The notes below the pieces were generated by a model. It had not been told where the DNA came from. It was given only the letters and a program-made list of their open reading frames with translations, and made no database searches. Below are positions 35,877 to 40,217 of a stretch of DNA of 64,000 nucleotides, piece after piece. The position numbers and the translations under genes were made by a program. The stretch lies in the NCBI GenBank assembly GCA_020851035.1, contig JADZDM010000025.1, positions 124,001-188,000 on the forward strand, read 5' to 3'. This stretch comes from Gemmatimonadaceae bacterium. Its GTDB lineage: Bacteria; Gemmatimonadota; Gemmatimonadetes; Gemmatimonadales; Gemmatimonadaceae. Positions within the stretch are counted from its first letter, which is position 1. Every line of letters begins with the position of its first letter.

Positions 35877-37499
35877 ATGAATCGCGATCGCACCGGTGCC
35901 GCGAGCATCGGGACGGCCGTTGCCGCCGACACCCTGACGGCGGACGAGATGCGTGCCAGCGAGGCGCGCTACCGGCTGCTGGCGGAGACGATGCTCCAGG
36001 GGGTGATGCACCATGCCGCGGACGGCAGCATCATCGCGCTCAACCCGGCGGCCGAGCGCATCCTGGGCCGGCCGCGGGCGGAGTTCCTTGGCAGCCACCC
36101 CGTGCAGGAGGAGCGCAACACCATCCGTGAGGATGGCACGCTGTTCCCGGGTGTGGAGCACCCGTCGGCGGTGGCGCAGCGCACCGGCCAGCCCGTACGC
36201 GGCGTGGTGATGGGTGTCTTCAACTGGGAGCGGAACGAGTACCGCTGGCTGCGGGTCGACGCCGTGCCGCTGATCCGGCCCGGCGAGGACACGCCGTACG
36301 AGGTGTACACCGTCTTCGAGGACATCACGCGGCCGCGCCAGGTGGAGCGCGCGCTGCGGGAGGCGCACACCCGCAAGGACCACTTCATCGCGACCCTTGC
36401 CCACGAGCTGCGGAACCCGCTCGCGCCGATCCGGAACGCGGTCGCGGTGCAGCGCCTCAAGGGATATGACGATCCACAGATGGTGTGGTGCACGGAGGTT
36501 ATCGACCGGCAGGTCGGGCACATGTCGCGGCTGCTCGACGACCTGCTCGACGCCTCGCGCATCTCGAGCGGGAAGCTCGACCTGCGGCGCGGGCGGGTGG
36601 CGCTGTCGGCGGTGCTGCACCAGGCCATCGAGACGGCGCGCCCGCTGCTCGATGCCGCGCAGCACCGGCTCGAGATCCGCCTCGGCGAGGCGCCGGTGTT
36701 CGTCGATGCGGACGCGATGCGGCTGGCGCAGGTGTTCGGCAACCTGCTCACGAACGCGGCGAAGTACACCGAGCCCGGTGGGCGTATCACCGTCACCGCG
36801 GCGGTGGCGGGCGGCGACCTGTTCCTGCGCGTGCGCGACACCGGCATCGGCATCGCGGTGTCGGACCTGCCCCGGGTGTTCGAGATGTTCGGGCAGGTCG
36901 AGTCGGCGTTGGAGCGGTCGCAGGGCGGGCTCGGCATCGGGCTCTCGCTGGCGAAGGCGCTGGTGACGCTCCACGGCGGCGAGATCACGGTGCACAGCGA
37001 CGGCCCCGGGCAGGGCACCGAGTTCACCGTCCGGCTGCCGGTGATGGCCGACGAGCCCGCGTCACCGGCGCCTTCGGTGCAGGGTGACGGCTATGACGGT
37101 GCGGTGCACCGGCGGGTGCTGGTGGTGGACGACAATCGCGACGGCTGCGACTCGCTGGCGACGCTGCTCCGCCTCTCCGGGATGGACGTCGAGGTGGCGT
37201 ACGACGCCACCGAGGCGATCGCCGCCGTGACGCGGCATGCGCCGGACGTCGCGCTGCTCGACAACGGGCTGCCGGGCATGAACGGGTACGAACTCTGCCA
37301 GGTGCTGCGGTCGCTTCCCGGGAGCGACGCGCTCGTGCTGGTGGCACTCACGGGCTGGGGGTCCGCCGCCGATCGCGCGCGCGCCGAGCGTGCCGGCTTC
37401 GATGCGCACTTCACGAAGCCGGTCGCGATCGACGAGCTGGTGGCGTTGCTGCGTCGCCCCACGGTCGAGGTGCGGCGCCGCGGTGCCGAGGGCGGGTGA
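35877..37499 (+). CDS. PAS hybrid histidine kinase with C-terminal receiver
   Basis: 540 residues from ATG 35877, with GGGGGAAG just upstream. A PAS domain occupies about 30-150 (AADGSIIALNPAAERILGRP). HisKA has His176 in ATLAHELRNPLAPIRNAV. The ATPase domain has GNLLTNAAKYTEPGG, RVRDTGIGIAVSDLP and QGGLGIGLSLAKALVTLHGG. The receiver (about 415-530) has DDNRDG, phospho-acceptor Asp462 in ALLDNGLPGMNGYEL, and Lys in FTKPVAIDEL. No membrane helix is visible. Its output is not evident: no DNA-binding regulator is adjacent. Confidence 0.9.
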   Translation: MNRDRTGAASIGTAVAADTLTADEMRASEARYRLLAETMLQGVMHHAADGSIIALNPAAERILGRPRAEFLGSHPVQEERNTIREDGTLFPGVEHPSAVAQRTGQPVRGVVMGVFNWERNEYRWLRVDAVPLIRPGEDTPYEVYTVFEDITRPRQVERALREAHTRKDHFIATLAHELRNPLAPIRNAVAVQRLKGYDDPQMVWCTEVIDRQVGHMSRLLDDLLDASRISSGKLDLRRGRVALSAVLHQAIETARPLLDAAQHRLEIRLGEAPVFVDADAMRLAQVFGNLLTNAAKYTEPGGRITVTAAVAGGDLFLRVRDTGIGIAVSDLPRVFEMFGQVESALERSQGGLGIGLSLAKALVTLHGGEITVHSDGPGQGTEFTVRLPVMADEPASPAPSVQGDGYDGAVHRRVLVVDDNRDGCDSLATLLRLSGMDVEVAYDATEAIAAVTRHAPDVALLDNGLPGMNGYELCQVLRSLPGSDALVLVALTGWGSAADRARAERAGFDAHFTKPVAIDELVALLRRPTVEVRRRGAEGG

Positions 37500-38511: not shown

Positions 38512-38539
38512 GTCGCGCAGGGCTGTTCGTGCTGGTGTG

Positions 38540-38573
38540 ACGCCCCCGGCCGGGGAGACCTGGCCGGGGGCGT
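38540..38573 (+). terminator. Terminator hairpin after the PEP-CTERM gene
   Basis: Perfect 12-base arms (ACGCCCCCGGCC and GGCCGGGGGCGT) with a 10-base loop, 28 bases after the stop. A T-run is absent, as with the other GC-rich hairpins of this window. Confidence 0.75.
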
Positions 38574-38605
38574 TGTGGTGGATCGGGGTGTTTCGCGGGG
38601 CCTGC

Positions 38606-38797
38606 TTCAAGGGGTCGGGGATCTTGAGTTCAAGGGGACGGGGATCTTGAACGCGACGGAGTTCAAGGGGACGGGGATCTCGAGTTCAAGGGGACGGAGA
38701 TCTTGAACGCGAGGTCGGTTCAAGGGGACGCGGATCTCGAGTTCAAGGGGACGGAGATCTTGAACGCGACGTCGGTTCAAGGGGACGGAGATCTTGA
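38606..38797 (+). repeat. Left REP-like array, seven units
   Basis: Units begin at 38606, 38628, 38661, 38684, 38718, 38741 and 38775. Two forms alternate: a full 25-base palindrome (arms GTTCAAG and CTTGAAC) followed by a GCGA-type spacer, and a 23-base form ending in CTCGA or CTTGA that runs straight into the next unit. The paired period is 56-57 bases. The central GACGG(A/G)G is nearly invariant. ACCGTCTG follows just past the end (38802). Confidence 0.9.
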
Positions 38798-38824
38798 CCG
38801 GACCGTCTGTGGCACGACACGCCA

Positions 38825-39562: not shown

Positions 39563-39708
39563 GTCGGGATCCTGCGAGGACGTGAACGATGCGGCCGGAT
39601 TGGGCGATGGCGCGTGATGACGTCTCGAGTCTGTCGCGCGACCCGCGCGCGTGTCCAGCGAAAGCGACGCGTGCGACATCGAATACTTGCAACGTTAGGT
39701 GGAGCGCG

Positions 39709-39845
39709 GTTCAAGATCTCCGTCCCCTTGAACGCAAGATCTCCGTCCCCTTGAACCCGGTCGCGTTCAAGATCTCCGTCCCCTTGAACGCAAGATCTCC
39801 GTCCCCTTGAACCCGGTCGCGTTCAAGATCTCCGTCCCCTTGAAC
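39709..39845 (-). repeat. Right REP-like array, five units, inverted
   Basis: Units at 39709-39733, 39734-39756, 39765-39789, 39790-39812 and 39821-39845, all reverse complements of the left-array form. The period of the unit pair is exactly 56 bases (39709, 39765, 39821), and the copies are nearly identical, suggesting recent tandem duplication. Confidence 0.9.
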
Positions 39846-40151
39846 GTCGTCCCCGTGAACGACCGTCGCCGCGCAGCCCCGGCGGCGCTCGGGCAACTCC
39901 GGTACGTCGATCGCAACGTGAATGCAGGCGGAAGCCTGGTCATTTCGTCCCCTGTCACGGGAGATCTCGCGGCGCTCCTGGACGCAACCTGGACCGCACC
40001 GGTCACACTCGATGCGATCTTCCGCGCCGACTTCGCCCCCGCAGCCTCCGACCCCTCCATCGTCCCCGAACCCGCCACCAGCACCCTCCTCGGCACCGGC
40101 CTCCTGGTCCTCGCCACGCTCGCCACACGCCGCCGCCGCACACCACGCTGA
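39842..40151 (+). pseudogene. 3' remnant of a PEP-CTERM protein gene
   Basis: The frame ends with a complete sorting signal: IVPEPATSTLLGTGLLVLAT, then LATRRRRTPR. Upstream there are about 70 residues of beta-rich sequence (YVDRNVNAGGSLVISSPV, WTAPVTLDAIFRADFAP) that run back into the repeat array with no signal peptide and no ribosome site. The only starts lie inside the repeat units. The gene therefore seems to have lost its 5' half where the REP array now lies. A strong hairpin follows its stop, as expected of the original gene. Confidence 0.7.
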
Positions 40152-40180
40152 TCCCGCACGCGACACCGCCACGACGACAG

Positions 40181-40217
40181 AGCGCCCCCCGACCAGGTCT
40201 CACGGTCGGGGGGCGCT
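40181..40217. terminator. Strong bidirectional terminator hairpin
   Basis: Perfect 14-base arms (AGCGCCCCCCGACC and its complement) with a 9-base loop. It lies 30 bases after the PEP-CTERM remnant on the plus strand and 31 bases after the stop of the minus-strand secreted gene, so it can serve both. Confidence 0.8.

Follow-up and report, generated by a model that had tools for sequence, protein, structure and literature searches.

Two described kinds of element bear on the locus presented here. In RAYT/REP units and BIMEs, as set out in the available part of PMC2817692 (2010), inverted palindromic repeats flank a transposase gene, recur more than 100 times, form mixed clusters with both orientations, and carry a GT(A/G)G head beside the palindrome. 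In TIRtrons, or TIRYTs, as set out in the available part of PMC3733652 (2013), a Y1 transposase lies between inverted repeats that are free of GTAG, and the repeats form clusters across the genome; a GGGGWSAS motif is reported there as common to some of the TIRs only. For other REP families, the same part of that source records repeats near gene 3' ends, in-frame intragenic REPs and REPs that supply a stop codon. The name Gemmatimonas does not occur in its text.

The unit examined here lies in a window of 64,000 nt (G000:C25:124001-188000) of a Gemmatimonadaceae genome, G000, of 4.97 Mb in 34 contigs. Its transposase scores 81.2 bits against NF047646, the curated RAYT model, just above the cut-off of 80, and 43.2 bits against Y1_Tnp; in the translation we take NHVHML to be the HUH motif, with what is presumably the Tyr region downstream. 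The gene stands between inverted palindromic repeats that have 117 sites in the genome (at most three mismatches), as in a RAYT unit, and the inverted arms measure 138 nt and are 82% complementary. Like the repeats of RAYT/REP units and BIMEs, those of G000 form mixed clusters; unlike them, they show no conserved GT(A/G)G tetranucleotide beside the palindrome in a 139-copy consensus. A RAYT-like gene between inverted repeats without GTAG is the arrangement of a TIRtron. In the window's repeat the sequence is GGGGACGG, which differs from GGGGWSAS by one base. G000 contains three related transposase genes, including the one in the window, and flanking repeats of their own are seen for the other two copies (contigs C21 and C2) and for the transposases of genomes G009, G029, G035 and G012; GGGGTCAG or GGGGACAG, which fit GGGGWSAS, occurs in the repeats that flank the G009, G029, G012 and C21-copy transposases. 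As a separate observation, a second repeat family, with a GGTGACAGTGCAC core, flanks another RAYT-like gene at L098 (G000:C2:168000-179000); it also adjoins the first family at L069:3147-3480, and is found at L076:1734-1835.

The layout of the locus is given in Table 1. Genes around the repeats were called with a small script, which scores codon usage and was trained on the window itself, and were not taken from curated annotation; a promoter scan found none. The IPT/TIG-like protein on the right flank has 83% identity in both same-genus relatives, G001 and G002, and scores slightly below the Pfam TIG cut-off.

Table 1. Features of the locus around the transposase unit, in window coordinates.
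Feature	Position	Strand	Remarks
Hybrid histidine kinase	35877..37499	+	Named from its translation; present in G002, missing from this position in G001
Intact PEP-CTERM gene, 221 aa	37846..38511	+	Signal-peptide-like start
Strong stem-loop 3' of the intact PEP-CTERM gene	38539..38574	+	Without T run
Left repeat array	38605..38800	-	7 copies of a 25-nt palindromic repeat, read on the - strand
RAYT-type Y1 transposase, 284 aa	38825..39679	-	NF047646 and Y1_Tnp profiles
Right repeat array	39709..39861	+	Inverted relative to the left array
Headless PEP-CTERM frame, probable gene remnant	39862..40151	+	Last third of a ~215-aa protein, ends in stop codon
Stem-loop	40182..40216	.	Also in G002, not PEP-gene-specific
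IPT/TIG-like secreted protein, 138 aa	40248..40664	-	Right conserved flank

An earlier note on this DNA had described a complete PEP-CTERM sorting tail after the right array, on a frame that runs into the repeat and has neither signal peptide nor start. This description is borne out. The residues encoded from 39861 to 40148 exceed the cut-offs of both PEP-CTERM models (PF07589, 22.5 bits against 20.7; TIGR02595, 22.4 bits against 16); compared with the exosortase substrates that these models represent, the sorting motif, the hydrophobic stretch and the Arg-rich end are all complete, whereas the signal peptide and the main domain are missing. The frame is open for 139 codons from stop to stop, extending into the right array, and is the shortest open frame among the 25 PEP-CTERM matches of G000, the next measuring 210 aa. 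Upstream of the sorting motif it holds no in-frame ATG, the candidate starts being a TTG within a repeat (39807) and a GTG at 39855 and at 39918. The best 12-residue stretch before the motif reaches a hydrophobicity of 1.2, against 1.9-2.6 for the N-termini of three relatives. With neither an ATG nor a hydrophobic leader, the frame lacks the signal peptide of a PEP-CTERM protein; judged from its translation, its product would thus be neither exported nor sorted, and it should have no PEP-CTERM function.

The gene was also said to be decapitated, and comparison with its family agrees. The family model A3, of 222 positions, was built from five of the seven full-length frames located, L003 and L018 having been excluded by eye as another subfamily. 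The tail matches this model at positions 149-221 only, with 45.6 bits, owed for the most part to the sorting motif; with the motif left out, the tail retains a weak 6.6 bits at the correct place, which beats 200 of 200 shuffles (best shuffle, 3.0). One homolog, L047, gives a motif-centred match that appears only with composition-based statistics off. Elsewhere in G000, no fragment of the A3 front half was found at E ≤ 1 save a 33-position match (E 0.1) in a 714-aa frame. The uninterrupted gene with this tail, for which the note had proposed a search, was found in none of 179 family genomes, G000 included. Matches to the tail at E ≤ 1e-6 occur in three of these 179 genomes (again with its own), and all but the query itself have at most 43% identity.

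We favour, with moderate confidence, the following origin: the headless frame is what is left of the 3' end of a second, now dead PEP-CTERM gene, which an array entered and whose front was then deleted. First, an array of the RAYT unit would have entered the coding sequence of this gene. Second, about the front two thirds, with the start and the signal peptide, would have been lost, for example through recombination between two like-oriented arrays or a deletion adjacent to the element, thus leaving one array abutting the tail. The order of these events and the deletion are what we infer, whereas the headless state, the array edge, the intact neighbour, the absence from the relatives and the entry of such repeats into genes of G000 are observed. 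The right array consists of two identical 56-nt copies and a third partial copy, and its final ~14 nt are a degenerate copy whose edge recurs on another contig (G000:C27, L092); the 23-nt outer edge was found at this one other cluster, beside an unrelated stop codon. Between about 39780 and 40110 the codon-usage score is highest for the tail frame among all six frames, and the gene-like usage of the tail extends to the array edge. Since the repeat also scores as coding in the tail frame, the codon score cannot place the border exactly. Nevertheless, an edge made of repeat sequence, together with coding usage that reaches it, suggests that the array entered the gene.

Insertion alone into one gene is rejected, as the far side of the unit holds, in place of the missing front half, a complete and different PEP-CTERM gene and its hairpin; a deletion must therefore be added. 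The earlier suggestion that the element had landed in a PEP-CTERM gene thus stands for the decapitation and falls short as a full account. The gene to the left is indeed intact, as had been stated: it has a signal-peptide-like N-terminus and, by profile match, the PEP-CTERM motif. It matches A3 over positions 190-222 only, which is the motif region. This gene is complete and of another subfamily than the tail, with no hybrid seen. A hybrid of the two PEP-CTERM genes is accordingly rejected, and the proposal that the element may have recombined between these neighbours has nothing to support it.

The same-genus comparison comprises two genomes only, G001 and G002. A search of genome contigs with the IPT protein returned only these two, plus two weak matches in unrelated organisms; the nearest named relatives of G000 by this search are Gemmatimonadaceae MAGs, the two relatives being LF-bin-339 and ES-bin-51. 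At the locus, G002 has neither the unit nor the two PEP-CTERM genes, and the kinase and the IPT gene are adjacent. In G001 the unit, both PEP-CTERM genes and the kinase are all absent, and the IPT gene follows a gene further left; these two genes are kept. The adjacency in G002 and the conservation in G001 indicate that the contig was not joined from distant regions. The unit and both PEP-CTERM genes were gained in G000 or lost in the others. In the comparison with close relatives that the note had called for, the relatives lack the repeats and the unit, but both PEP-CTERM genes are absent too. Given this absence, and with no intact gene found, insertion into an intact gene is neither shown nor refuted.

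The comparison also reassigns the stem-loop that follows the tail. It is strong (-32.9 kcal/mol) and has no T run, and the terminator scan does not list it. In G002, a similar stem-loop begins 6 nt past the histidine-kinase stop and the IPT gene comes next, with no PEP gene in between; the hairpin is thus not the PEP gene's own and is better read as belonging to the pair of histidine kinase and IPT gene. We therefore reject it as the tail's own terminator, the role it had been given in the earlier note.

Against the 117 sites of the repeat family in G000 at up to three mismatches, G001 and G002 have 0 each, and among 60 genomes searched, its own included, only G009 also has the repeat, at one site. 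We analysed 36 clusters (L068-L096 and the window) of at least 39 in G000. These 36 flank 39 gene 3' ends, of which 31 have a repeat no more than 60 nt away; in 26 of these 31 the repeat has the orientation of the gene and lies just past its stop codon. For 5' ends at the same distance the count is 7 of 31. The order in each of the 12 mixed clusters is minus then plus. The right array of the window is the only case, among the 31 flanking 5' ends, of an array that enters a gene frame from the 5' side.

Repeats of this family do enter genes in G000. An in-frame repeat pair (L073:3032-3094) lies inside a conserved 352-aa protein (G000:C5:164319-165374, minus), whose three aligned orthologs, in G001, G002 and G003, are without the insert. 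A full-length PEP-CTERM protein encoded at L069:2447-3148 (G000:C2:54946-55647), which belongs to the tail's family, takes its last residues, SRGRRS, and its stop TGA from a repeat; the end of this gene, with the repeat, is duplicated ~230 nt downstream. Of the 25 PEP-CTERM matches in G000, four, at three loci, have a repeat within 250 nt, and for the other 21 the nearest of the repeat sites listed (100 of 158) is 6.4 kb or more away. A rough Poisson estimate for the three loci is 0.0005, for an association noticed after the fact. That the repeat family hits PEP-CTERM genes preferentially, and so helps to turn over the set of sorted surface proteins, is a highly doubtful extension; if the association held, a transposase-associated repeat system would be linked to surface-protein repertoire turnover.

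Other histories of the tail have to be weighed against insertion followed by deletion. It is possible, but in our view unlikely, that the PEP-CTERM gene had decayed earlier or been truncated in some other way, and that the RAYT unit landed beside the remnant and downstream of the intact gene, as a neighbour and not as the cause. Indeed, G001 has a headless PEP-CTERM tail with no repeat array beside it (G001:C94:17310-17384, L125), which shows that remnants of this sort do not require the element; the PEP-CTERM genes of the locus are absent from both relatives, which makes their turnover look fast. The position of the unit is also an expected one for this family, given the 3'-end counts above and a left array that lies after the intact gene and is oriented as usual. 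However, no non-coding gap separates the tail's coding signal from the array edge, as would be expected more readily had the array cut the gene. Insertion and deletion remain our preferred reading, and this reading has its own difficulties: no relative carries the intact gene or an empty site within it, the front half was not found in G000, a repeat-free headless tail exists in G001, and the alignment of the A3 family comes from five sequences.

Quite improbable is an artefact of assembly, in which the assembler collapsed two near-identical arrays that enclose the front half in the real genome. Assembly does seem to fail at such arrays, as a repeat lies at the end of at least three contigs or close to it (C10:5; C28:75368 of 75437; C33:105), and the right array holds two perfect 56-nt copies. 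Synteny with G002 on either flank, however, leaves room only for a local collapse, and no orphan front half of the A3 family was found on other contigs. Finally, although the frame has stayed open with gene-like codon usage, its expression as a functional short gene from a GTG or TTG start is extremely unlikely, as it has no signal peptide and thus no entry to the export and exosortase route, its first candidate starts are within repeat sequence, and open frames as long as this one are common at its composition (26% of 5000 mononucleotide shuffles).

Overall, the locus pairs an ordinary gene remnant with an element of a recognised kind. This explains a puzzling frame as the remains of a gene, and places a lineage-specific repeat family beside a known kind of transposase unit. 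Among the titles listed in searches on RAYT/REP, TIRYT, REPIN and PEP-CTERM, none describes a PEP-CTERM gene truncated at such an array. The 3'-end bias, the in-frame insertions and the repeat-supplied stops have published parallels: in the part of PMC3733652 available, intragenic REPs likewise lie near 3' ends, some in frame and some supplying the stop codon, whereas an array that borders a gene without its front half is found here, with no such case in that part of the source. The unit likewise resembles the TIRtrons described there, with a Y1 transposase between GTAG-free inverted repeats and repeat clusters across the genome, and differs in having arrays in place of single TIRs, with 117 sites at up to three mismatches. 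Among the systems compared, the unit is closest to the published TIRtrons.
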